The notes below the pieces were generated by a model. The model saw nothing but the letters and a program-made list of their open reading frames with translations, was not told where the DNA came from and searched no databases. Position numbers and translations under genes: made by a program. From IMG/VR virus record IMGVR_UViG_3300027522_000042, positions 1-23,436 of that record: 23,436 bases of DNA. One strand, given 5' to 3'. Positions within the stretch are counted from its first letter, which is position 1. Every line of letters starts with the position of its first letter. This stretch comes from a virus. Positions 7,988 through 23,083 of the stretch are shown in pieces.

Positions 7988-8542
7988 TTATTGTTTCCTC
8001 TTGATTGTTGTTTTATTTCCAACGAATACGTTGAAAAGCTCGGTAGGCATTTCTTTGCCTGATTCTAAACGTTCCCGAACTAACGCTTTAAGAGTCATGG
8101 GTTCCACCTTCAACTTTTGTGTTGGTGAAAACCCACGCTCAGATGCAAGGCTAGCATAATCCGCAGCCTTGTTATCTTCGTTACGCCCAAATGATACGGA
8201 TATCTCATTTTTGATTATATCACCCAGGTTATTGTCTCGAAGCCATTGAAATGCAGCATCTCTATTTGCAATAGTAATACTTGCACTATAATTAGGTTTA
8301 ACATCTACTGAAGACCCGTCCATAAGTTTAAGGTGAGATAAACCCATCTCAGCCATCATGGTAGGAATTACTTCTCCAGATAAATAGTCAAATTGTTTTT
8401 TAGTTTTTTTTAAATTCTCTTCTTGAGATTCAATATCATTTTGTAAAGAATTTAATTTCTCTACTTGATCTGCAAGAGTTTTTATATTGTCTGTTTTTTG
8501 TATGACCTGTTGTTGGTCATTTTCAAAGTTTATGTTACTCAT
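7988..8542 (-). CDS. Conserved phage protein with N-terminal coiled coil (184 aa)
   Basis: Residues about 17-56 form a charged heptad-like helix (VEKLNSLQNDIESQEENL). A conserved alpha/beta region follows, including LKLMDGSSVDVKPNYSASI, then AFQWLRDNN with an IIKNEISVSFGR segment, and later LKALVRERLESG. I recall this C-terminal region as a common uncharacterised phage family found next to replication genes. No catalytic motif is evident, and no signal peptide or membrane segment. Its ATG overlaps the end of the 118-aa gene by eight bases, and the 252-aa gene starts two bases after its stop, so all three should be made together. It may be a replication or recombination accessory protein or a modulator of the ssDNA-binding candidate; this is inferred from position. 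Confidence 0.75.
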   Translation of the reverse strand: MSNINFENDQQQVIQKTDNIKTLADQVEKLNSLQNDIESQEENLKKTKKQFDYLSGEVIPTMMAEMGLSHLKLMDGSSVDVKPNYSASITIANRDAAFQWLRDNNLGDIIKNEISVSFGRNEDNKAADYASLASERGFSPTQKLKVEPMTLKALVRERLESGKEMPTELFNVFVGNKTTIKRKQ

Positions 8543-10404: not shown

Positions 10405-10899
10405 TTATTTTACGTATCTGTCGGTTGATAGACCTAAGATCTGTTTGTATTCCGTCTTGCCGGATTCGCCTTTAATCGCCATTAGATATTCCTTACGGTT
10501 AGCGTTAATTTCTTTTGTGTATGATACATGGACCCAGCCACTGTTGGGTTCGCCGGGAGTGTGGTACTCGAGAATCAATTGATCAAACATTAAGTTTTCT
10601 TTGATCCAATCTGCTAGTTCATTGTTGGCAACACCAAATATTTCTAGGTCTGCCGCCTCTCCTTTGCAGTGCTGACTCTTAGTTGAGCTACCTATCTTAA
10701 CTGACAAAATTGGATCTCTAAATCCACTGGAAATAGTCACTACTTGATTGAAATGGTCTCTAACGGGCTGTAGAACCCTCTCACAGAGCAATCGTAGATT
10801 TTCGGTCTGATCGTCCGTGGGGTTGTTGTTAAGGCCCATCCTCGTCGCTGTCTGTGACTTACAAAGCTCAGCTTTGCTGAAATTCTTGCTCAGTTTCAT
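10405..10899 (-). CDS. M15-family peptidase, likely endolysin
   Basis: 164-aa zinc peptidase of the M15A type (D-Ala-D-Ala carboxypeptidase or L-Ala-D-Glu endopeptidase fold) expected to cut peptidoglycan cross-links. Zinc ligands fit SQHCKGEAADLE (H77 and D84) and WVHVSY (H124), with E111 in LILEYH as a candidate catalytic acid. ISSGFRDP at 56-63 is also typical of the family. There is no signal peptide, so release would need a holin or similar. AGGAGAGCC directly precedes the ATG. It follows the 63-aa membrane protein with a gap of seven bases, forming a probable two-gene lysis cassette at the 3' end of the late operon. A virion-associated role is an alternative. Confidence 0.9.
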   Translation of the reverse strand: MKLSKNFSKAELCKSQTATRMGLNNNPTDDQTENLRLLCERVLQPVRDHFNQVVTISSGFRDPILSVKIGSSTKSQHCKGEAADLEIFGVANNELADWIKENLMFDQLILEYHTPGEPNSGWVHVSYTKEINANRKEYLMAIKGESGKTEYKQILGLSTDRYVK

Positions 10900-10906
10900 G
10901 GCTCTC

Positions 10907-11098
10907 CTATTTTATGATTAACATGTAGATCATACCGGCCATACCGGTGATCAAAGCTCCGACAGATGTTAGTAGAATAGTTTCTATTCTACAAATCTGT
11001 TTTTCTAATGAATGAATCTTGTCATGAGTTTGTTTCTGCATAATTCTACACAGCTTCTCATGTGATTCTATTTTTGTTAGTGCAATATTTTTAGTCAT
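10907..11098 (-). CDS. Small tail-anchored membrane protein, holin/XhlA-like candidate
   Basis: 63-aa protein with a charged N-terminal helix (residues about 8-40, with a heptad-like KIHSLEKQICRIETIL segment) and one C-terminal hydrophobic span at about 41-62 ending MLIIK. This layout, soluble coiled coil followed by a terminal membrane helix, matches XhlA-type lysis accessory proteins and some small holins. Its ATG shares a base with the stop of the 1511-aa gene (TAATG), and there is no strong Shine-Dalgarno sequence, so it should depend on coupling. The neighbouring M15 peptidase lacks a signal sequence and would need a membrane partner, which supports a holin-like role. Sequence alone does not prove pore formation. 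Confidence 0.7.
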   Translation of the reverse strand: MTKNIALTKIESHEKLCRIMQKQTHDKIHSLEKQICRIETILLTSVGALITGMAGMIYMLIIK

Positions 11099-14000
11099 TA
11101 AGTTCTACTCGCAATTACTTTTTCAGTAGGTGATAATAAAGCAGTCTCAGTCTGTGTCAAGTTAGTTTGTGGGTCGACATTTTGTGCTTGACTTAACTGT
11201 TTAGATGGCATTGGTGTGTCACCTAATGGTGGTGTTTGCATTTTAGGTTTACTTGTAAAACCTGGTGAACCCGGTACCATTAAATCTTTTATCATACCTG
11301 GTACTTTTTTAATTTGTCGCTGGATAAATCCTTCTTCTTTTATTGGATTTCTATTTTTATCTAACAACAACCTGCCTTCTTTGTCTATTTGATAATTTTC
11401 TTCATCAGGCTTGTAGCCCCCTTCTCGTTCTCTTGTTTCTTCGTTTAATACTGTAGGAAAAAATTTAATTCCACTGTATTTTCCTTTAACTCTATCTAAA
11501 TCTCTTTGCGGAAATAAAAAAGATCTGTTTGCTCTATACCTAAACTCATCATTGTCTTTAGTTAAATTTTTCATTTGTTGTTTAACTGATTTAACTTTAC
11601 TTTCAAATCTAGGTTTAGAATAATTAACTGGTGTAAATCTTCCTGATACTAGATTATTAACTAATGTTCTGGAAGCACCTTGATCTCTCATGATTTGATA
11701 TATTTTAGATTTACTTAAATCTAATAATTCTAAATCTTTAATTCTAATGTACATATCTTTTTGTATTCTAAATGCTTCTTGCTGCATGTTATCAAAAGTT
11801 CTAACCATATCTGTTGGTGTTTTTTGTGCAAAATTTTGTACGCTATAAAAACCTTCTGTTTCATCAACCGCTCTTAACAATGCATTCATACTACGTGTAA
11901 AATACCTAAGGTCTTTTTTAACATCAATTCTAATGATCCGTGTTCCAGTAAACAGGGCCAATAATTCATCAGATAAGTTAACTGGTTTACCACCTTTAGT
12001 TAAATCTAATGACAAAGCATCACCTATTTTTTGACTACTTGTTAGCACACCAGGTTTAACTCCATCTAATATGTGAGTTAATGATTTAATAAATTTATCT
12101 CCAAGGTCATCAGAATTTGTGTACACAAAACCACCGTTATCTTTTCTACCATTTCTTGTAGTTACATCTATAAACCTATCAAAACCTAAAGGCTCTGATA
12201 TAAATGGATCTAGATATACAGAAACAGGTCCATTTTCTCCAAACATTAAATTCATTACAAACTGTTCTGTTTCTTGTGGATTTAAATTTTGTTTCTGTGC
12301 TTGTGCAATAGCTGCGTCTAGTGGTTGATACAAACTATCGTAAGGACTAAAGTATGAAAAATTAATTGCAGCACTTTCACCATTCTTCCAACCTTTAACA
12401 GCTAACAAATTTGATGTTGCATCCCATGATGCAGCTGATGATCTTTTGTATGCGTTCCATTGTGAATTTGTAGAGTTAGTTAACGCTTGTGATAACTCAT
12501 TAAATCCTTTTCCAATAGCGTAACTTGTCATAAAAGCACCAGTCAATCTTCTTATACCCATTTGTTGTATAGCTCTATTAGGATGCGCCGATTCTTTTAA
12601 ACCTGTGCTAATAATATTTGCACCGGTTCTAAGTATTTCTGCCGGGAAAGATATAAAGTTTCCAAGAGGCAGCTTTCTTAGTGCTTGAATAACGGGTGGT
12701 ACTTTACTGTAAGTTGGGTAAGTGTTTCTTAAAAGATAAGCTGATCCTTCTTCAATAGCATCATCATATGTTTTTTTTACTCCAGTAACAGGACTTATGG
12801 AATCAAATTCTTTACCCATGTATCTAAACCATTCTTTAACCTCATCTAAATTTTTTAATGCTTGAGACAATTGTGATTTACCAAATTCAAAACCATAACC
12901 TTTCCATAAGTTATCACCCCCTGCGTATAGTCTTGCAACTTTATCTGTAGGTGTCATTTTCATTAACCTATCAAATAATTTATCAGTAGTATTTATTGCG
13001 TTACTTTTTAAATCTTGTAGCACAGATTTCATTTCTGCAGCTACCACGTTTTCATCCCACACACCAAGTCTAACTAATTTTTCTACGTAGTTATTAAATT
13101 CTACTTCATCAATTTTATTACCTCCTGCTTTAAATATATCTCTTGCAACTATCTGCATAGCATCTGTAACGCTAGCTCTACCACCTATGTGTCCATTCAT
13201 TAAAGAAAAGAAAGAAGCTGAAGTCACGTTTCTAACTTGTGTTTGTGGTGAGTATAATGTTTTACCGATCTGTACACCAACTTTAAATTGTAATGCAAAA
13301 CGATAGAAAGCATTCTCTACAAGTTTATCTAATGAACCCCCTATACCTGCAAAACCTTCTACATATTCAGGTGAGGCCCACTTGTTTAATAAACCTGATT
13401 TCATAATACCAAGTCTCGGTACGCTTTTAATTTGTTGTGCACCAACAAATCCTGCGTTAGTCGCATCTTCTAAAGTATTGAACAACCACCCATTTTTTAA
13501 ACCTGATCTTGCTATGTAATCCGCTGCTCTTTTGTTGGCCATTGATGCGATAGCTTCTGATGTAGTGAATGCGACTGAGGCTTTTAAATTTCTTTCAGGG
13601 CCTAATAAATTTTTTATTGCAGCTGGTAATTCTTCACCAGTTTTTAAAAATTTAAATTTATCGTTTTGTAATATACGAGTACCTATATCTTTTAATTGTG
13701 TTAATGGTGATTTACCTTCAGCTTTAGCTGTTCTTAATATATCTTCTGCGTGCATTTTAGCAGACTCTATGTAAGCTTGTTCTGGTTTTAGTTTTGGAAA
13801 AGAATTCCTGGCAGATTCTTTTAAGTTTGTATTTTTTGTAATTACATTGTTAACTAAATAATCAACTGCTCCATCCATTATTTTTTGTGGAGGAACTTTT
13901 TCAGGATTTGTAAATGTTGTGAATGATCTTACTAAATATTTACCAACGTTATCTACTTCAACAGTAGCAAGATCTTTTGCTAATTCATCTGCATCTTTAC

Positions 14001-15633
14001 CTTTAGGTAGTACTTTTTTAAATTCCGTTTGAATTTTTTTAATATCATTAATTAAATCTTTTGTTAATGTTTGAAGTTCTTGTGGTAGATCTTCTATTTT
14101 TCTTTGACCTTTTACTACCGCATCCGCATCTTTTAAAATATTATTAGCTATCTCTTTAATTTCATCTGCATAATATCTTTGAATAGCAGGAGAGGTAGTG
14201 TTTTTATTGTATTGATCTTCAAATTGTTTAGCTAAATTGTATGCAGATTTTTCTAAACCTTCATAAGTTCTATCTATTTTTCTAGCTCTACTTTTAACAT
14301 ATAGTGTTACTTCTTCACTCACACCTTCGATATCTTTAGGTTGTTTTCCATAAGACCTAAACCATGATAATATATTATCCACTCTTTTAAGACCTACGTT
14401 TATTTTTCTTGGATCTGTAACCGATTTTAATCTCCAATCTTTAAAAGGTGGTAGTTGTGTTACAAATTTATTTTTTGTAAAAGTACCCGCAAAAGCATTT
14501 GCTAATAATGGCGCTACTACTTTACTTACTGTATATTTTCCTGCTTTTTGTAAAGTTTCTGCTCCTGCTTTTGTCAAAGGAGCTACAAGTTTATTGCCAA
14601 ATAATAATTCAACAGGTCTAACCACAGTTTTATTAATTCCTTTTGCACCTAATTGTGCTACACCTACTCCGTATTTATTAACCATCAAAGGTTTTCCTAA
14701 ATATTTAAAACCAAGTTGTGTAAATTTACCAACCAATGGAAAGCCGCCACCAATTAATGCACCTTCAGCTCCATACTTAATTCTATTTCTAAATTCTGCA
14801 CCTGCTCTTTTCCTGCCCGTTAAATTTTTAGTGTCCTCCGGTTCTACAAAAAAAGATTCTCTACCTGGATTAGATGCTAAAAAATCTGTAGCCCCTACAA
14901 TACCGGCACCTTCTACCATTCTCGATGCTACCTGACTAACTTTTCTAAGTTTACCACCTTTAACAGCATCAGCTGCTTTTTTCATTTTAACAACTGCAGG
15001 TATCCTTCCTGCAATTTTAGCAATACCTGCTCCTGGTATACCGTATTGTGTAAGTAAAGATGTAACTTCTCCTCTCCATGTTTCAGGACGAGTAGGTTCG
15101 TTCTCTTCCATTACTTTTTCAAATTTAGATAAAAAATCTGTATTGGCTGCAAGGTCTGTACCTGCAAATAATAATGAACCTAAACTGTTTTGTAAATCAT
15201 ATGTACCCGAACTAATACCTTTTGCTATCTCATCTAATCCGGTGGTGTAATCTCTTTCTTGTGTAATTTCTTTGTTGTTAATTCTAAAACTAGGAGCCTT
15301 TGCGTCAGGAATTTTTTTTAATTGCTTCATAGGATCACCCGCTTCTGTTGCTTCTTTGTCAGCTAAAAATTTAGGTACACCCTCTATACCGGCTATAGAA
15401 TTTGCTAATCTTTTTGTAGGGTTAAATGTATAATACATTTCAAGAACACTTTTAGGGTCAGGCATAGCTAACCATTTCACAGGTTTTTTAGGTGCCGATT
15501 GTGATTTAAGTTCGTTTTGTATTTTAAGTTTAACTTGATCTAAGTCTAAAGGTTGTTGTTTTTTAATATCAACGTTAACTGCTTCTTCTTTATCAGGGTC
15601 TTTGAGAAATCGTTCGTAGGCAGTTTCAGCCAT
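11098..15633 (-). CDS. Giant internal/ejected virion protein candidate (1511 aa)
   Basis: The largest gene in the window. Residues 1-150 are polar and charged. About 190-310 is Gly/Ala/hydrophobic (GIPGAGIAKIAG, GAEGALIGGGFPL). Long helical stretches follow (about 440-680), then a central mixed domain, and a C-terminal Lys/Pro/Gln-rich tail. I see no lytic transglycosylase signature and no cysteine anywhere. Strong Shine-Dalgarno GGAGG lies before the ATG, one base after the 354-aa gene. Position, last large gene after the tail nozzle and two Gly/Gln-rich proteins and just before the lysis genes, parallels T7 gp16 or P22 gp16, the largest ejection proteins. Structural/ejection assignment is by size and synteny, not homology. 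Confidence 0.7.
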   Translation of the reverse strand: MAETAYERFLKDPDKEEAVNVDIKKQQPLDLDQVKLKIQNELKSQSAPKKPVKWLAMPDPKSVLEMYYTFNPTKRLANSIAGIEGVPKFLADKEATEAGDPMKQLKKIPDAKAPSFRINNKEITQERDYTTGLDEIAKGISSGTYDLQNSLGSLLFAGTDLAANTDFLSKFEKVMEENEPTRPETWRGEVTSLLTQYGIPGAGIAKIAGRIPAVVKMKKAADAVKGGKLRKVSQVASRMVEGAGIVGATDFLASNPGRESFFVEPEDTKNLTGRKRAGAEFRNRIKYGAEGALIGGGFPLVGKFTQLGFKYLGKPLMVNKYGVGVAQLGAKGINKTVVRPVELLFGNKLVAPLTKAGAETLQKAGKYTVSKVVAPLLANAFAGTFTKNKFVTQLPPFKDWRLKSVTDPRKINVGLKRVDNILSWFRSYGKQPKDIEGVSEEVTLYVKSRARKIDRTYEGLEKSAYNLAKQFEDQYNKNTTSPAIQRYYADEIKEIANNILKDADAVVKGQRKIEDLPQELQTLTKDLINDIKKIQTEFKKVLPKGKDADELAKDLATVEVDNVGKYLVRSFTTFTNPEKVPPQKIMDGAVDYLVNNVITKNTNLKESARNSFPKLKPEQAYIESAKMHAEDILRTAKAEGKSPLTQLKDIGTRILQNDKFKFLKTGEELPAAIKNLLGPERNLKASVAFTTSEAIASMANKRAADYIARSGLKNGWLFNTLEDATNAGFVGAQQIKSVPRLGIMKSGLLNKWASPEYVEGFAGIGGSLDKLVENAFYRFALQFKVGVQIGKTLYSPQTQVRNVTSASFFSLMNGHIGGRASVTDAMQIVARDIFKAGGNKIDEVEFNNYVEKLVRLGVWDENVVAAEMKSVLQDLKSNAINTTDKLFDRLMKMTPTDKVARLYAGGDNLWKGYGFEFGKSQLSQALKNLDEVKEWFRYMGKEFDSISPVTGVKKTYDDAIEEGSAYLLRNTYPTYSKVPPVIQALRKLPLGNFISFPAEILRTGANIISTGLKESAHPNRAIQQMGIRRLTGAFMTSYAIGKGFNELSQALTNSTNSQWNAYKRSSAASWDATSNLLAVKGWKNGESAAINFSYFSPYDSLYQPLDAAIAQAQKQNLNPQETEQFVMNLMFGENGPVSVYLDPFISEPLGFDRFIDVTTRNGRKDNGGFVYTNSDDLGDKFIKSLTHILDGVKPGVLTSSQKIGDALSLDLTKGGKPVNLSDELLALFTGTRIIRIDVKKDLRYFTRSMNALLRAVDETEGFYSVQNFAQKTPTDMVRTFDNMQQEAFRIQKDMYIRIKDLELLDLSKSKIYQIMRDQGASRTLVNNLVSGRFTPVNYSKPRFESKVKSVKQQMKNLTKDNDEFRYRANRSFLFPQRDLDRVKGKYSGIKFFPTVLNEETREREGGYKPDEENYQIDKEGRLLLDKNRNPIKEEGFIQRQIKKVPGMIKDLMVPGSPGFTSKPKMQTPPLGDTPMPSKQLSQAQNVDPQTNLTQTETALLSPTEKVIASRT

Positions 15634-15634
15634 G

Positions 15635-16699
15635 TTACGCCTCCGCTGGTAGTACTAAGTTAACGCTATATTTTTTATTAAATTGATCTACTTGTGATTG
15701 GTCTGAAATCATAGCAAAGTCTTCTAGTGCTTCTGCACTATTAGTCATTAACTCTACAATATCATCTGTAATTTCATTTGGTAATCTTGCTCTTAACTGA
15801 TCGTAACTTATAGGGTTATCAGTATTCATGTTCTGTCCACCCATTGGTCCGGGAACCATGGCCCCTGTTTCTGTAATCTGTTCTTGAACTAATTCACCGT
15901 TCGCATATCTTGCTCTACCACCACTGGAGAACTGACCAAGGATTTTTTTAATTTGTGCGATAGTATCTATGTATAATTGTACATCTTGCTCATCTGTGTA
16001 CTTACCCTCTTGATCTTCATCTAAAAGTTTTTCAGATAATGAATTAAATAAATTTTGTCCCGATGGAGAACTAACAAATATTTTTATAGCACCTTCTGTT
16101 ACTGGATTGCTTTTAGTGTAGTTATTTTTTTGAGTTTTTAATATATCTAATTGCATTATATCATCGTCAGTTGCTGTACCGTCTGCAACTCTAGATTCTA
16201 TCTCGTATATTTTAGGAATGATTGATTCTAATTGTTTAGATATTTCTAAATCTCTGTATGTTTTACCACCAGTCTCTGACCCTAATATGTCTGCTTGACC
16301 TTCAATTAATGAAGTAAACATATCAGATCTTTTGTCATCTAATCTCTCATCTCTTTTTGTGTTTGTAGCTCTATATCTGTCATAAGCTGTTTGACCAGAG
16401 GCACCAATGTTTTCAAAAATAGATCCCCCCGAAGCTGGTCTTGAAATTAAATCTAAACCAAAATCAATAAATAAATCTTTGTTGTCTCTAGGTTTTTCTG
16501 GATAAAGTCTTTCTGCTTCAGCTCTCATTTGATCTGGAGTCGCAGTTCTTGGATCATACTTATAAACATTTTGATCTCTAGGATCTTCTGTACCTTGATA
16601 ACCTTGTCTAGGTGATTGTAAGCCAGATGTAATACCAGTGCCACCGCTATCCGCCATGCCACCTTTTCTAAACATAGGTCTACGAAACGTATTATTCAT
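15635..16699 (-). CDS. Late structural-type protein with GG motifs (354 aa)
   Basis: 354-aa Cys-free protein. The N-terminus carries a basic, Gly-rich motif (RRPMFRKGGMADSGG), followed by a polar, probably disordered stretch to about 70. A helical region at about 125-250 is rich in Asp, Ile and Gln. A second Gly motif, SSGGRARYANGE, lies at about 258-269, and the C-terminus is an acidic helical segment. Similar RxGG and ANG motifs occur in the 709-aa and 122-aa late proteins. Its ATG overlaps the stop of the 318-aa gene (TAATG). It probably belongs to the same virion or ejection assembly as the adjacent large proteins. I recall such proteins in marine podovirus contigs without a proven function. 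Confidence 0.75.
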   Translation of the reverse strand: MNNTFRRPMFRKGGMADSGGTGITSGLQSPRQGYQGTEDPRDQNVYKYDPRTATPDQMRAEAERLYPEKPRDNKDLFIDFGLDLISRPASGGSIFENIGASGQTAYDRYRATNTKRDERLDDKRSDMFTSLIEGQADILGSETGGKTYRDLEISKQLESIIPKIYEIESRVADGTATDDDIMQLDILKTQKNNYTKSNPVTEGAIKIFVSSPSGQNLFNSLSEKLLDEDQEGKYTDEQDVQLYIDTIAQIKKILGQFSSGGRARYANGELVQEQITETGAMVPGPMGGQNMNTDNPISYDQLRARLPNEITDDIVELMTNSAEALEDFAMISDQSQVDQFNKKYSVNLVLPAEA

Positions 16700-17655
16700 T
16701 ACTTTGTCATTCCATAACCAAGAGAACCTATACCGATTGCTGTTTCTAGTGCAGATTTGTTTGGTGAAACTTGTGTTTGATATTGACCCATCGCACTACC
16801 CATAACATTACCCATACCGGCACCCATATAATTTAGTCTCTCATAAGGTTCGTAGGCTGCCATTCTATTAGCTTCTCTTTGTTGATCAAGAATATTTTGT
16901 GATTGTAGTTGTTGATTAGTTCCAGCACCTTGTAATGTTTGAACATCTTGTCCGTATAAACCTGGTACTAATGAAGCCATTCTTTGTTGATCCGCTCCTA
17001 AAGTATTTGCACCCTGCATTAAGTTTTGTTGGTTACTAAATAAATTTCCTTGTTGTCCAAACGCTGTGTTCGCTTGTCCTTGAGCTTGACCAAAACCTTG
17101 TTGTAACATTTTTCCTTGTAGTAAAGCTCTGTTCATGTCAGATTGATTTTTATATTCTGCTCTCATTACACCTTCACGCCCGCCACCTAAGTTACCAGAC
17201 ATAGCTGCGTTTTGACCAATACTTGTCATTCCTTTTGCGGCTTGCTTGTCGTAATCAGTCATAGTTGCATTAATTACATCTTGTTGGTACGGAGACATAA
17301 ATTGTTTGTATGCATTAGGTCCTGACAAAGCTCCTTGAGCCGTGGACTGTGCTTGAGCGGCTTGTAAATAATCTTGTGAACCCATCATGTTTGTAGGTTG
17401 ACCCGCAAAAGTTCCAGTTCCTTGTTGAAAGGCTCCGGCTTGTTGTAAGTAAGGTTGAAAAGATCCTATACCTTGACCTTGTGTTGTAGCCATTGAATAA
17501 GCATCTTTTTGTGCTTGGTCTTGACCGGCAACCATTGGTTGGAATTTTTTTGTATCAAGAGGTAATGAAGTTAAACCAGTTAACTGTTTTGCATAATCTT
17601 TACCTAGATCTTCTACAAATTTTGGTGGTAAACTTCTTGTTTCTGTGACTGCCAT
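16699..17655 (-). CDS. Gln/Ala/Gly-rich virion protein candidate (318 aa)
   Basis: Low-complexity, Cys-free protein dominated by Gln, Ala, Gly, Met and Asn. The N-terminal about 55 residues are conventional (MAVTETRSLPPKFV...). The body has quasi-repeated QG/QA stretches (GFGQAQGQANTAFGQQG), with a more ordered block FMSPYQQDVINATMTDYD at about 119-136 and GNLGGGREGVMRAEY. The C-terminus is Gly/Met-rich and mildly hydrophobic (GIGSLGYGM). Composition and position between the tail nozzle and the giant protein recall the Ala/Gln-rich ejection proteins of T7-like and P22-like phages (gp14, gp20), but no sequence homology is claimed. The ATG overlaps the 709-aa stop (TAATG), with AGGAG upstream. 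Confidence 0.75.
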   Translation of the reverse strand: MAVTETRSLPPKFVEDLGKDYAKQLTGLTSLPLDTKKFQPMVAGQDQAQKDAYSMATTQGQGIGSFQPYLQQAGAFQQGTGTFAGQPTNMMGSQDYLQAAQAQSTAQGALSGPNAYKQFMSPYQQDVINATMTDYDKQAAKGMTSIGQNAAMSGNLGGGREGVMRAEYKNQSDMNRALLQGKMLQQGFGQAQGQANTAFGQQGNLFSNQQNLMQGANTLGADQQRMASLVPGLYGQDVQTLQGAGTNQQLQSQNILDQQREANRMAAYEPYERLNYMGAGMGNVMGSAMGQYQTQVSPNKSALETAIGIGSLGYGMTK

Positions 17656-19784
17656 TATAATACTTCTCCTAATCTCTCTGATGTTTCAAACATTTGTTGA
17701 GCGCCATTATTTCCTTGTGACTCTTCTGATATTGTACCACCATTTTCTAAATTTTCCATCATATTCTCCATTATTTCTGCACCTTTGTCAATGTCCCCTT
17801 GACCGGCACCTCTTACAGCGTCTGCTGTAAACACAAATTCATTAACACTTAATCTTGCAGGTACGTCATCTTTTTTTTCATACTCTCCAATGGGTACAAA
17901 ACCACCTTCAGCTCTGTAATCTTTTTCCATACCACCAAGGTCCATTAATCCACCTTCTGCTCTACCTATTCTACCACCGTTAGCAGCGTATTTAGTATAA
18001 GGTAATTTACTAGGTAAATTTAAATCTTGAACTGCGTCTAAAGGAGGCAGCATATAATTATAGTATTGTTGAACTTCCGCTATTCTTTGTGGGTCTCCAC
18101 TTTTATATGCTTCTTGAATTTCATTTTGAATAGCTTCTTGTCCTTCTTGTCCTTGTGAATTTTTTAAACTCCCACCTCTGTCACTAAAACTTGTTTCGTT
18201 TGGTTTAGCTTTATTTAATCCAGGGATCATAGATAGACCTAAACCAAGACCACCCATCGTAGCCATTTTTCCAAGTGTACCTAACTCATCATATTTACCT
18301 TTTAATCCCATTACACCGCTTGCAGCTTTAGAAAAAAATCCAGGACTGCCTGAAGCTGCACCAGCAAACATATTTCCAAAACCACCTGTTGCTTTTATTC
18401 CATAACCTGGCATGTAATAAGCCCCTGCAGCTAACATTGCCATCTTACCTACATCACTTTTTAAAACTTTTCCTGCTGCATCAGCAACACCACTGACTGC
18501 ACCTTTAATACCTTTAACTATCTTACCTAAAAAATATCCTTGTCTTTGATCGACTCTGTTCATGATTCCACCCATAGCTCTTCTTGCTCTAGTGCCCATA
18601 ATTCCACCACTCATTTCTGGAACTACGCCACCTTGATTAAAATCATAAGATTCTCTGGTCACGTCTGCAGCTTTACCTAAATTAGGGTCACCAAATCTGT
18701 AGTCAATTTTTTTTTCAACAGGCATTATTTGTTTTGGAATAGGAGAAAAAATTTCTTGATTATTTTCACCTCCTGTGTCTCCTGTGTCTACATTATTTTG
18801 CCCGTATTCTTTTAAAAAATTACCGTCATAGTTAATAAGATTAAATGCATCATTACTACCCAGTCCTTGGTATTGTTTTGGATCTCCACTTAAAGTAGGG
18901 ATATCTTTGCCATAAATACTTGATAGATCATCATCATTAAATGTTGAAAAAGCATCCTGTAAATTAAAATAATCTAAACCAGATTCTTTTAAAGATTTTT
19001 CGTCTAGTTCGTCATACTCTTCATCGTTTGCTAAGCCCAACTTCTCTATCATAGCTCTTTTTTGTTGAGGAGGTAATGAATTAATATAATCCATCCTATT
19101 CTTTAAAGAACCTTGACTTATAAATTTCTCACTTAAAAAATCTAATGGTTTTTTATATGGAATAAAATCAAATATAGGATTTTTTTTATATTTATAAATT
19201 GATTCAGCTTTTAATGCATCATCTATTTTTTTTTTCTCTTCAGCTTTCTTTTTTAAATCCAACATTTTTTGGATTTCTTTTTCTTGAGCTATTTTATCTC
19301 TTTTAGCTTTATCTTCCTTATCTTTTTTAGCTTTTTTAGCTTGTCTGTCTGCTAAATCTTTTGCTGCTTTTTTTGTTGCAGCTTCATTATTTCTTTTAGC
19401 TTTTGCTTGCGCTGCTTGTCTAGCTGCAGATGCCCTTTGTTCTGCACCTCTATCATTTCCGCTATCATAGCTATCTCTAGAATTTCCACTTCCTTGACCA
19501 CCCTCTGCACCAGCATTTCCACCACTTGTGTCAGAACTACCATCAGAGTTTTTATCACCCCAACCATTTAAACTCATTACACCGGATGGTCCTCTGTTAG
19601 GTTTACCATTTAGTGAATTGTGTAAATCTTTTTTAAGAAGTAAATCTTTTTCTGCTTTTGTAATATAAGCTAGTTCTGTTTCAGGATGATCGGGTCCCGA
19701 CTTCCATTTAATGGGCACCTTACCTACAGTTTTTTGATCGCCAAGATAGTTTTTTACTCCACCTTGAATAGCTACTTTAGCCAT
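17655..19784 (-). CDS. Multi-domain late protein with Lys/Ala coil and C-terminal VPA motif (709 aa)
   Basis: Domains in order: an N-terminal globular block (1-75); a Gly/Ser/Asp low-complexity linker (about 79-113); a long Lys/Ala/Glu helix, probably coiled coil (114-195); an acidic region (about 205-350); a Gly/Ala-hydrophobic stretch that could touch membrane (about 415-525, for example GKMAMLAAGAYYMPGYG); and a C-terminal region with GG motifs (ANGGRIGRAEGG) leading into VPARLSVNEFVFTADAV at 641-657. I recall that C-terminal motif as common in marine phages; its function is unknown to me. GAGGT precedes the ATG, two bases after the 122-aa gene. Cys-free. Probably a virion or ejection component. 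Confidence 0.75.
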   Translation of the reverse strand: MAKVAIQGGVKNYLGDQKTVGKVPIKWKSGPDHPETELAYITKAEKDLLLKKDLHNSLNGKPNRGPSGVMSLNGWGDKNSDGSSDTSGGNAGAEGGQGSGNSRDSYDSGNDRGAEQRASAARQAAQAKAKRNNEAATKKAAKDLADRQAKKAKKDKEDKAKRDKIAQEKEIQKMLDLKKKAEEKKKIDDALKAESIYKYKKNPIFDFIPYKKPLDFLSEKFISQGSLKNRMDYINSLPPQQKRAMIEKLGLANDEEYDELDEKSLKESGLDYFNLQDAFSTFNDDDLSSIYGKDIPTLSGDPKQYQGLGSNDAFNLINYDGNFLKEYGQNNVDTGDTGGENNQEIFSPIPKQIMPVEKKIDYRFGDPNLGKAADVTRESYDFNQGGVVPEMSGGIMGTRARRAMGGIMNRVDQRQGYFLGKIVKGIKGAVSGVADAAGKVLKSDVGKMAMLAAGAYYMPGYGIKATGGFGNMFAGAASGSPGFFSKAASGVMGLKGKYDELGTLGKMATMGGLGLGLSMIPGLNKAKPNETSFSDRGGSLKNSQGQEGQEAIQNEIQEAYKSGDPQRIAEVQQYYNYMLPPLDAVQDLNLPSKLPYTKYAANGGRIGRAEGGLMDLGGMEKDYRAEGGFVPIGEYEKKDDVPARLSVNEFVFTADAVRGAGQGDIDKGAEIMENMMENLENGGTISEESQGNNGAQQMFETSERLGEVL

Positions 19785-19786
19785 GA

Positions 19787-20155
19787 CTATCTACCTCTGT
19801 TGTATAGACCCATCAGACCACCGTTGGCTCTCATCTGAACTTGTTCTCTCATATCAACATCAGCGATACCACCGCCTGGCATTGATTCGGCCATGTTAAC
19901 ATTTTCGTTCATAGACATTTCTGGTGTTTGGTCTGCTTGCATCTGTTGTATAATTTGTTTCCAGATTCCACTTTCAAAAAAAGCTTCAAAACTTTGAAAC
20001 TGTTCTTTTTGTTCTGGTTCCATTTGTTCCCATATTTCAGCAGCCATCATTTGCTGTTCTTCTTGAGGTGATTTAGGACCTTCGTCTCCTCTATACCTAA
20101 TAGACGGTGCGTTAGTTTCTAGCTCTTCTGAAATTTGTATATCTTCTATTCCCAT
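19787..20155 (-). CDS. Gln/Glu/Met-rich late protein ending in a GG motif (122 aa)
   Basis: Acidic 122-aa protein rich in Glu, Gln and Met (MMAAEIWEQMEPEQKEQF), predicted largely helical. Its last residues, MRANGGLMGLYNRGR, carry the same ANGG-type motif as the neighbouring 709-aa protein, suggesting a shared binding partner or assembly. No Shine-Dalgarno sequence is visible before the ATG; 12 bases separate it from the 58-aa gene. It is Cys-free with no membrane segment. It lies directly upstream of the 709-aa gene and could be a chaperone, scaffold or small virion partner. The function is not recognised. Confidence 0.75.
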   Translation of the reverse strand: MGIEDIQISEELETNAPSIRYRGDEGPKSPQEEQQMMAAEIWEQMEPEQKEQFQSFEAFFESGIWKQIIQQMQADQTPEMSMNENVNMAESMPGGGIADVDMREQVQMRANGGLMGLYNRGR

Positions 20156-20167
20156 GATTTGTATAGT

Positions 20168-20344
20168 TTACTTTGTTTTTCCTAATAAATCAAGAGATGG
20201 CATAATAACATTTACATCTTGTGCCATTTCTTCTTGTTTAAAACCTTTAACTTCCCAGTCTTTTCTCTCCTTAAAAAGCTCTCCTGTTTCCTTGTGTCTA
20301 TAAGTAGTCTCTACCTTAGCCTGTAGTATTGGTGTATCGTTCAT
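20168..20344 (-). CDS. Small late protein (58 aa)
   Basis: An ORF of 59 codons including the stop, filling the space between the 113-aa and 122-aa genes. Its ATG shares a base with the preceding stop (TAATG), and AGAGGT lies about nine bases upstream. The product starts MNDTPILQAKVETTYRH, continues with a charged centre (KERKDWEVKGF) and ends LLGKTK. It is soluble-looking, with no cysteine and no membrane segment. Non-random amino-acid use, a Shine-Dalgarno sequence and the exact junction make it a convincing gene. The position suggests a small tail or connector accessory protein. No family is recognised. Confidence 0.75.
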   Translation of the reverse strand: MNDTPILQAKVETTYRHKETGELFKERKDWEVKGFKQEEMAQDVNVIMPSLDLLGKTK

Positions 20345-20685
20345 TATGTTGTTACCTCTTTTAGTATGTTTAAAAAGCTAATACCTATTGTTGTGGAATC
20401 TGTTGTGCTGACTGTAAATCTAAAGTAAGTGCCTCCTTCTACAATTAAAGGCTGAGTCAATAATTCTGTCATAGTGTTAGCAGTTAATGCAGCTTTGATA
20501 AAAGGAAAACCATTATTAGTTAAAGTAATAGTAGGTGTTCCAGCTGAGCTAACTAAAATAGATTTTATAACAATGGTCTCATTAACAGCAGGTATTATTG
20601 TATTTGCATCTGATCCAAAAGTATACTGAATTGCTGTTGAAGTTACTGTCGCTCCATAAAATTTATATTGGTTTACTACTGCCAT
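20344..20685 (-). CDS. Small beta-rich structural protein (113 aa)
   Basis: 113-aa protein rich in Thr, Ile, Val, Ser and Asn with alternating hydrophobic residues (IQYTFGSDANTIIPA, TPTITLTNNGFPFI, GGTYFRFTVSTTDS), typical of an all-beta sandwich. There is no cysteine, signal peptide or membrane span. Its start shares a base with the stop of the 54-aa gene (TAATG), and its stop with the start of the 58-aa gene. Beta-rich proteins of this size in late operons are often head decoration or tail accessory proteins, which is the likeliest role. No specific family is recognised. Confidence 0.75.
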   Translation of the reverse strand: MAVVNQYKFYGATVTSTAIQYTFGSDANTIIPAVNETIVIKSILVSSAGTPTITLTNNGFPFIKAALTANTMTELLTQPLIVEGGTYFRFTVSTTDSTTIGISFLNILKEVTT

Positions 20686-20849
20686 TAATCTAAAAAGAAA
20701 CTTCTAGCTTCTATCTCCTGTTTTAATTCTTCTTGAAAGGTACTATTTAATTTTTCTAATACGGCATCTAAATCTCTAACTAAAGATTGAGATATGTCTT
20801 GATCATATTCATCACTAGCTCTGGTTAATGATTGTACAATTTTAGCCAT
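20685..20849 (-). CDS. Small helical late protein (54 aa)
   Basis: An ORF of 55 codons including the stop between the nozzle-like gene and the 113-aa gene. The ATG shares a base with the nozzle stop and the TAA with the next ATG, both as TAATG. GGAGGAAG upstream is a strong Shine-Dalgarno sequence. The product starts MAKIVQSLTRASDEYD and is almost wholly a charged amphipathic helix (VLEKLNSTFQEELKQEI), likely a coiled coil. The double coupling and ribosome site make the call solid despite the size. It may be a tail assembly chaperone or connector component; the role is inferred only from position. Confidence 0.75.
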   Translation of the reverse strand: MAKIVQSLTRASDEYDQDISQSLVRDLDAVLEKLNSTFQEELKQEIEARSFFLD

Positions 20850-23083
20850 TATCGTCTTCCTCCAGATTGTATATCTAATCTAAAAGTACCAAGTTTCCAA
20901 GTACTATCTATTTCTGTGTTAGAAATAGAAAGAGCTATGGCTCTACCTCTAGCACGAGTATCTACTTTTGTAGTTGTAGGTGCTAAAGTAAACGGACCTA
21001 AGGGTGAACTTGCTGCCGTGTTGTTTGGGTAATCTCTAACAAATAATGTAGCTATTACATTTTCTGCTTGGTTAATAAAGTCAGGAACTATTCTACTAAT
21101 TCTCATCATAGCTTCACCGTCTCCTCTAAGATCTGCTAAATTGCTAGCTGCACCTTTAACTACTTTTTGTGTGATATCATAATCTCCAGAAATAATATTA
21201 GCCGGTATAGGAACAGGACCCGTGAAAGCAGTTACTTGATTAACTCCTGTTTCATGTTGGAAATAAATTGTAGTTCCTTCAGTGTTTCCAATAACATCAA
21301 AAGACGCATCGTCTCCTGCATCATATCTAGTTGCATGAGGTAAACCAAATACAGCAGAGTCAACCCAAGTTGTTCTCGGGTATAAGGCACTTGCATTAGT
21401 AAACCATATCGGACGTTTTTTTGTTGAATCTAAATAGCTATAGGTAACTGATCTGTTAACTACATTAGAAGTACCACTACAGTAAAACCAAGTTATCTCG
21501 CCAAACAAGTTATTAATACCACAATAAATTAATTGATTAGATACTGTATTTATATCATCAAAAACATAATCTTCGACTAAGCAATCCATTGATTGTAGTT
21601 GACCGGTATACCTAAAGAATCCATTATCGGACATCCAGTAAGCAGCACCATCTACTTCAACAGCTGCGTTCATTCCAATTAAACCACAGTTGGTTCCAAC
21701 TTGCTCGTAAGCAAAGGTAAACGGAGTACCTACAAATCTCATTGTAAATAGTGAGGTGTCGGTCCAAATGTAAATTGCATTTCTTCCAAGCTTAGCCCCC
21801 ATGATCCGTGATCCGGCGGCCAGTCTTTGTGTACCGGCACTATTGGTTGCTGTAGGTGTATAATCTTCTATATTTTCTTGAGACGAAAATCTTATAAACA
21901 TATCATCTTGAGTATCTTTATCTCCAATTGTTTTCTCTGTTCCAAAAAATACTAAGTGACGATCTGGAGTAGAGACTAACATATCACGCGACGCGGTTGG
22001 TGCGTTTGGAATAATAACAGCTCTAACACTTGTTGCATTAGTTGCATCACCATCCCATTTAAAACATTCTCCGTTGTGAATTAATGCAATCAAGGTAGAC
22101 CCTAAGTTGTCCAAGGACCATAGACCAGGATCATTTACTGAGTCTGTATTAGCTGCGGGAGATCCCCAACCTGTAAAGGAAGAAGTATTAGTAACAGTAC
22201 TTCCAGAAGACCAAGCTTGTCTTGTTGTGTTTAAAACTCCTCTAGTAATACCGGTAAGATTGTTTCCGGCTATTCCGGTGTATGAAATGGTTTCACTATT
22301 AGGAACACTACCTATTGTTCCAACAGTAATAAAATTTACTCCAGTTGAAGGAAGACCTGCTGTACTTGCTAAAGTGACCACGGTACCCGAACCTCCTGTA
22401 CCAAAAGCATTATCTGATAATGATCCGTTTAACGTTGTAAGTAAGGTTCCTAAAAGATTACCCCCGAATAAAGATATACCCCAACCAAAAGCACCTAGTT
22501 GTTCTGCGGGTCCAACACTATAGTATTGAAAAAATTTAACACTACCTGAAGTAGTAGCGCCACTACCTGTTTCGTTAGTAGCCATAGTAATTGTAATTGT
22601 AGTTGAAGTAGGGGTTGCTGTTACCATGTATTTCTTACCATCAAAATCTGCAGCAGTATAATTAGAATTAGTAGCGCTAGAGAAATTACTAAACAGGATA
22701 ATGTTTCCTGCAATAAAACTGTGGTCACTTGGAAAAGTTATAGTAACTGTAGGTGATCCGTTAGTAGTAGTAAAACAGTTTGAAAGAGTTGTTCCCGAAG
22801 GATTAACTAAAGGATGTATGTCATAAAAAATACTACCTGAATAAACATATAGAATATTACTAGTTCCTATTACTGCGTATTTAGTAGAAGCTGTGCTAAC
22901 AAAATGATGTAAATTTCTAGCGGCACCTGTTAGTTTACTGGTACCTAGTTGTTGCCAACCACCTATCTTCTCCGGTGTACCATATCTAAAACGTACATTC
23001 TCACCATCTACCCATTGACTTTCGGCTCCGGTGTCTGTGACTTGTTTATTGAATCCTGGTAAAAATCCTAGTTTTTGTAGCAT
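20849..23083 (-). CDS. Tail nozzle / phage stabilisation-like protein (744 aa)
   Basis: 744-aa protein, mostly beta. It opens with MLQKLGFLPGFNKQ and a VRFRYGTPEKIGGW block (about 31-44), which I associate with a widespread family of podovirus tail proteins resembling P22 gp10 or T7 gp12-like nozzles (beta-propeller). A Ser/Thr/Gly-rich region (about 80-310) of repeated short strands follows, then a region with YSYLDSTKKRPIWF, and a C-terminus ending in a strand-rich segment (WKLGTFRLDIQSGG). It contains six cysteines, unlike the eight proteins encoded after it. AGGGA precedes the ATG. It is expected to sit below the portal and form part of the channel for DNA and ejected proteins. The fold call is by pattern, not search. 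Confidence 0.7.
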   Translation of the reverse strand: MLQKLGFLPGFNKQVTDTGAESQWVDGENVRFRYGTPEKIGGWQQLGTSKLTGAARNLHHFVSTASTKYAVIGTSNILYVYSGSIFYDIHPLVNPSGTTLSNCFTTTNGSPTVTITFPSDHSFIAGNIILFSNFSSATNSNYTAADFDGKKYMVTATPTSTTITITMATNETGSGATTSGSVKFFQYYSVGPAEQLGAFGWGISLFGGNLLGTLLTTLNGSLSDNAFGTGGSGTVVTLASTAGLPSTGVNFITVGTIGSVPNSETISYTGIAGNNLTGITRGVLNTTRQAWSSGSTVTNTSSFTGWGSPAANTDSVNDPGLWSLDNLGSTLIALIHNGECFKWDGDATNATSVRAVIIPNAPTASRDMLVSTPDRHLVFFGTEKTIGDKDTQDDMFIRFSSQENIEDYTPTATNSAGTQRLAAGSRIMGAKLGRNAIYIWTDTSLFTMRFVGTPFTFAYEQVGTNCGLIGMNAAVEVDGAAYWMSDNGFFRYTGQLQSMDCLVEDYVFDDINTVSNQLIYCGINNLFGEITWFYCSGTSNVVNRSVTYSYLDSTKKRPIWFTNASALYPRTTWVDSAVFGLPHATRYDAGDDASFDVIGNTEGTTIYFQHETGVNQVTAFTGPVPIPANIISGDYDITQKVVKGAASNLADLRGDGEAMMRISRIVPDFINQAENVIATLFVRDYPNNTAASSPLGPFTLAPTTTKVDTRARGRAIALSISNTEIDSTWKLGTFRLDIQSGGRR

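Follow-up and report, generated by a model that had tools for sequence, protein, structure and literature searches.

A cysteine-free late gene block in a relative of SAR11 podophages and its probable link to genome ejection

The window, that is, the whole 23,436-nucleotide stretch of viral DNA analysed here (IMG/VR record IMGVR_UViG_3300027522_000042), carries on its minus strand a nozzle gene, then a putative ejection block ending in a very large protein, and then lysis genes. The block comprises eight adjacent genes (11098-20849, minus strand) with ORFs of 1511, 354, 318, 709, 122, 58, 113 and 54 AA in order of position, and their translation revealed 0 Cys in 3,239 residues. It is bounded upstream by a tail nozzle/stabilisation protein of 744 AA with six Cys (20849..23083, minus strand; phrog_3287, E 2.8e-95) and downstream by a probable lysis protein of 63 AA with two Cys (10907..11098, minus strand; phrog_38642), beyond which lies an M15 peptidase (endolysin) with three Cys (10405..10899, minus strand; PF08291, E 1.6e-16). 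Eight consecutive Cys-free late proteins between Cys-bearing flanks had been described in an earlier note on this DNA, and our counts bear out both the block and its flanks.

No match for the block proteins was obtained in a Pfam search, nor a credible one in PDB sequence searches. The last and largest gene of the set (11098..15633, minus strand) encodes a predicted inner-membrane/transport ejection protein of 1511 AA, whose distant homologues are the virion proteins gp85 of HTVC027P and gp127 (1,990 AA) of Cellulophaga phage phi13:2; searches of Pfam, PHROGs and PDB sequences gave no match of this protein to an RNA polymerase family. The 354-AA protein (15635..16699, minus strand) is a predicted ejection protein, with its function assigned by position only, and the Q/G/A-rich 318-AA protein (16699..17655, minus strand) is predicted to be another; both lack Trp and His besides Cys. 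Modelling gave all-helical structures, at low confidence (pLDDT 41 and 42), both for the 318-AA protein and for the 1511-AA protein between residues 420 and 1390. In the 318-AA family, 12 of the 14 members match phrog_4287, annotated as 'DNA ejection protein' (best E 2.3e-10; window member 0.0014), which has SU10 gp21 and gp22 among its core members and is matched also by LUZ24 gp53. A direct profile comparison of the family with SU10 was weak (probability 31%), the match lying in Q/G-rich sequence. For the 354-, 709- and 1511-AA proteins no homology to an established ejection protein was found. The earlier note spoke of phages with no detectable homology to T7 or P22; none to these two was found, whereas the 318-AA family shares phrog_4287 with SU10 gp21 and gp22.

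The 709-AA protein (17655..19784, minus strand), a predicted ejection or internal virion protein, has a variable front and a conserved tail, and the adjacent 122-AA gene (19787..20155, minus strand) is a split-off N-terminal part of the same gene type. Over its residues 1-32 the 122-AA protein shares 88% identity with the N-terminus of a 495-AA relative (L041:15969-17453), and the C-terminal part of the 709-AA protein is 55% identical to the C-terminus of that same relative. Judging from these alignments, the two genes are the two ends of what is one gene in relatives, split and with the middle replaced; the 709-type gene is a fast-changing mosaic. Its conserved C-terminal motif ARLSVNEFVFTADAVRGAGQGDIDKGAEIM (window ~17700-17920) shows weak similarity to C-terminal regions of tape-measure proteins (phrog_5448, phrog_23013), and the Gly motifs MFRKGG, GGRxxYxNG and AEGG recur in the 122-, 354- and 709-AA proteins (window 16640-16699, 17655-20155). 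The remaining three genes, all on the minus strand, encode small Cys-free proteins of 58 AA (20168..20344), too short for the absence of Cys alone to carry meaning, of 113 AA (20344..20685), left outside the assigned ejected set, and of 54 AA (20685..20849; phrog_32936, no assigned function, E 5.6e-17). The 113-AA protein gave no BLASTP match to its positional counterpart in HTVC023P, which carries two Cys.

The 4,472 residues that the window encodes outside the block include 63 Cys (1.4%, with metal-binding proteins counted in). At the rate found for virion proteins (0.62-0.66%), 20-21 Cys would be expected in the block, as against about 20 estimated in the earlier note, and the probability of finding none is approximately 1e-9. 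When the 63 Cys were scattered at random, none of the 20,000 trials gave a run as long as the block (maximum 1,237 AA), and shuffling of the gene order gave such a run in 0.16% of trials. Sulphur economy was rejected as the cause because Met is abundant in the block proteins, with 20 Met in the 318-AA protein despite its lack of Cys. Mutational inaccessibility was rejected as well: in the four large block genes 17-20% of the codons are one substitution away from a Cys codon, and control genes are alike. Early proteins of 252 and 184 AA, already noted as lacking Cys, do so, as does one of 120 AA. The 184-AA protein (window 7988-8542; phrog_2378, function unassigned) is Cys-free in 15 of 15 relatives, though presumably cytoplasmic, and Cys absence in a short protein therefore means little. 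The eight-gene boundary drawn earlier is inexact: the evidence extends to the 709- (with the split-off 122-), 318-, 354- and 1511-AA proteins, the 54-, 113- and 58-AA proteins being too small to tell; the robust Cys-free core consists of the 709-, 318-, 354- and 1511-AA proteins.

A search of phage records with the window at the DNA level gave no match. At the protein level, its nozzle is 43-46% identical to the nozzles of 023Pt_psg01, HTVC027P and HTVC023P (~46% for the latter two), and by sequence the window belongs to a relative of the SAR11 podophages HTVC027P and HTVC023P. Both of these cultured phages largely keep the order of nozzle, block and lysis genes, and this late order together with the related nozzle fits pelagiphages of the HTVC023P type. 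Counterparts of the 318-, 354- and 1511-AA proteins lie in the same order in both, all Cys-free and annotated merely as hypothetical or putative structural; unlike in the window, a glycosyltransferase and another Cys-containing gene are placed within the block (L026:27266-29108; L046:35963-37763). The host of the window phage is presumably SAR11. As DsbB was present in 12 of 12 SAR11 genomes tested and a DsbA-like family in eight, this presumed host would have an oxidising envelope.

The Cys-free feature is real and conserved. The earlier note had proposed counting Cys across related phages, and in related IMG/VR contigs, once gene starts had been set correctly, the four large proteins had relatives with a total of 3 Cys in 94,390 residues. 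The one in the 1511 family (1 Cys per 58,981 residues, 45 relatives) is the first residue of a broken frame (L078), and the other two belong to a single protein (L022/L081) of the 709 family (2 per 14,762, 30 relatives); the 354 and 318 families had none (9,453 residues in 26 relatives and 11,194 in 40, respectively). Proteins encoded elsewhere in these phages behaved differently, with 106 Cys in 16,993 residues for the nozzle (present in 25 of 25 relatives), 161 in 15,406 for the helicase and 54 in 2,641 for the M15 peptidase, and the 63-AA lysis protein had Cys in 15 of 15.

The same absence was observed in short-tailed phages whose ejection proteins are established. In T7, P22, SU10 and N4 taken together, these proteins contain 1 Cys in 10,820 residues, vs. 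90 in 13,799 for non-ejected proteins of their virions. None was found in T7 gp15 (747 residues) and gp16 (1,318), P22 gp7, gp20 and gp16 (1,309), SU10 gp20-24 (2,956) or N4 gp50-52 (4,294), and T7 gp14 has one, at position 2. Gp15/16 of P-SSP7, annotated as internal virion proteins, have 0 Cys in 2,082 residues, and with 'ejected' labels taken from annotation and set before counting, phiKMV gp35-37 have 0 in 2,416 and BPP-1 bbp10-12 have 1 in 3,003. Metagenomic P-SSP7-like gp15 and gp16 gave 0 in 126,322 residues vs. 294 in 36,650 for gp10-gp12. Against a ban on Cys count the annotated internal virion proteins gp15-17 of epsilon15, with 4 Cys in 2,394 residues. A Poisson model that included phage effects was fitted to all phages tested, related and hence non-independent ones included; it put the Cys rate of the ejected class at 0.04-0.05 of that of the remaining virion proteins, whether or not composition terms were added. 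Since the labels of LUZ24, SIO1, HTVC010P and phi13:2 were assigned by position while the counts were in view, the claim leans on T7, P22, SU10, N4, phiKMV, BPP-1 and P-SSP7, for which the earlier proposal that ejected proteins avoid Cys is upheld. The ejection cassette is the longest Cys-free gene stretch in most podophages examined; epsilon15 departs from this, while in BPP-1 one Cys breaks the stretch and in HTVC010P a crude gene caller broke it up.

The Cys that remain in ejection sets are mostly a single residue at the extreme N-terminus or a close pair. Position 2 holds the sole Cys of T7-type gp14, an outer-membrane pore protein: T7 starts with MCWAA, epsilon15 with MCSPA and P-SSP7 with VCLGA, and the residue recurs in 18 of 18 distinct marine N-termini (loci L047:27728-28318, L058:15956-16558, L054:11586-12128 and L047:18864-19130). 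T7 gp6.7, also ejected, begins with MC. Of the rare Cys of ejection-type proteins, some form close pairs (338/347, 329/352 and 38/39; L022:5923-7974, L054:12141-14669 and L217), as though pairs able to bond locally were permitted.

Proteins injected through contractile tails, a contrast absent from the earlier note, do not share this feature. They contain 52 Cys in 13,545 residues (0.38%) vs. 7 in 27,998 (0.025%) for the podophage set (Fisher p 1e-18), the contractile side being represented by few protein families: T4 Alt (3 Cys in 682 residues), P1 DarB (9 in 2,255), the phiKZ vRNAP subunit gp180 (2 in 490) and seven jumbo-phage vRNAP subunits (38 in 10,118, each at least 3; five in that of phiKZ and three to 10 in the six others). 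Packaging and passage through the tail alone therefore do not explain the absence of Cys. The chief difference known between the two routes concerns the periplasm, across which a contractile tube takes its load. Short-tailed phages, on the other hand, build a conduit in the periplasm (reviewed in PMC8954989). This contrast supports the periplasm as the reason, as had been proposed, and suggests exposure to its oxidising conditions as the best-fitting cause of the ban.

Four other explanations were weighed. Composition or architecture, by which long helical, flexible or low-complexity proteins would be poor in Cys, Trp and His whatever their route, is an unlikely cause. Scaffold proteins, which are never in the periplasm, have 1 Cys in 2,105 residues and tape-measure proteins 0 in 3,186, that of the Gram-positive phage TP901-1 included. 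These counts speak against the periplasm as the sole cause, and an architecture that is helical or extended may play a part; the lack of Trp and His in the 354- and 318-AA proteins and the two all-helical models point the same way. Yet the deficit is still 20-fold after correction for 11 composition terms, and T7 gp16 (9 Trp, 21 His) and N4 vRNAP (20 Trp, 44 His) keep other rare residues with 0 Cys; by contrast, 12 Cys are found in T7 RNA polymerase, which shares its polymerase family with N4 vRNAP. Roughly as improbable is that unfolding and passage down the tail, rather than the periplasm, select against Cys. The N4 papers offer both, and the tape-measure proteins, which pass the tail, are Cys-free even in TP901-1, but Alt, DarB and the jumbo-phage vRNAPs exit by the tail tube and keep their Cys.

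A third alternative is that every particle protein avoids Cys, as seawater or air would oxidise free virions, and that the block is simply the portion of the virion present in the window. It is very improbable, and we rejected it. Several HTVC027P head proteins are indeed Cys-free (capsid gp59 of 302 AA, gp56, gp57 and gp58, as well as gp41 and gp42), but here as in other phages the proteins of nozzle, portal, tail and fibres have ~0.6% Cys (portal gp43 of HTVC027P has one), and proteins packaged in the heads of jumbo phages, T4 and P1 retain it. Cys-free head or non-ejected proteins, which the earlier note had named as evidence against its proposal, thus do occur, in HTVC027P gp59, gp56, gp41 and gp42 and among scaffold and tape-measure proteins, whereas Cys is present in those of nozzle, portal and fibres; the absence of Cys alone is accordingly not diagnostic. 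HTVC027P gp41 and gp42 (483 and 892 AA, no assigned function; L026:1953-6084) lie between terminase and portal and are candidates for further internal or ejected proteins. Chance or relatedness, with a Cys-free ancestor and slow change, can be practically dismissed: most residues are common to close relatives, but homologues as distant as 25% identity are Cys-free, and simulations from a Cys-free root at 0.3% equilibrium Cys predicted 16 Cys for the sampled 1511 family, 8 for the 354 family and 7 for the 318 family, against 0 observed, with zero Cys in 0 of 200 runs along the tree of the 1511 family, though 0.1% equilibrium Cys is compatible with each family taken alone.

We consider it likely that the 709- (with the 122-), 318-, 354- and 1511-AA proteins serve a short-tailed pelagiphage as its ejection proteins and that selection due to the oxidising periplasm has purged them of Cys. 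That the block proteins are ejected in the window phage is inferred, as is selection through disulfide chemistry. These proteins would be stored in the head, leave via the nozzle ahead of the DNA and build a conduit through the outer membrane, periplasm and inner membrane. They would reach the oxidising periplasm partly unfolded and then refold and assemble there, where DsbA/DsbB would form non-native or mixed disulfides in Cys-bearing ejection proteins; Cys would be removed by purifying selection because refolding under these conditions would give wrong disulfides.

The window cassette is ordinary in kind, most likely obeying a rule valid in most short-tailed phages tested, and the point of interest is the general rule and its dependence on route rather than the cassette itself. 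The evidence tips towards a wider reading, by which Cys absence is a general and route-specific mark of proteins that cross and assemble in the periplasm, one that marks out podophage ejection sets even where they share no homology, and that no longer applies to proteins which a contractile tube delivers straight to the cytoplasm. That ejected proteins avoid Cys holds up well as an idea, but it is already in print for N4: the absence of Cys from N4-type vRNAP, with passage through the tail or periplasm as a possible reason, has been published (PMC3715699, PMC3915230, PMC2784036), and the passages concerned cite Kazmierczak 2002 for it. No general statement of this kind for ejection proteins was found in the open-access literature, most subscription papers lying outside that scope. 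The old remark on N4 vRNAP becomes a testable rule on disulfide chemistry in genome delivery. Ejection proteins change so rapidly that homology searches miss them, and many phages therefore have none annotated; a long Cys-free run adjoining a nozzle gene offers a simple extra pointer to them.

The window block resembles the gp14-gp15-gp16 set of T7 and the gp7-gp20-gp16 set of P22 in following the tail genes and in being Cys-free, bar Cys2 of T7 gp14, although no sequence homology with either set was detected. The 1511-AA protein has the gene position of T7 gp16 and SU10 gp24. N4 gp50-52 likewise form a Cys-free set, which is ejected (for the roles of gp51 and gp52 see PMC12633501); gp50 is a polymerase, whereas the 1511-AA protein has no polymerase match. 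For SU10, ejection has been shown experimentally by others, gp20-24 being in the virion and gone once the genome is released (PMC9509320). The SU10 and window sets differ in how many genes they have, in sizes and in the very Gly/Gln-rich members, and a sequence relation is seen only to the 318-AA protein. Yet SU10, like the window, has five adjacent late genes that are Cys-free, end in a protein of ~1,500 AA and include at least one related member.
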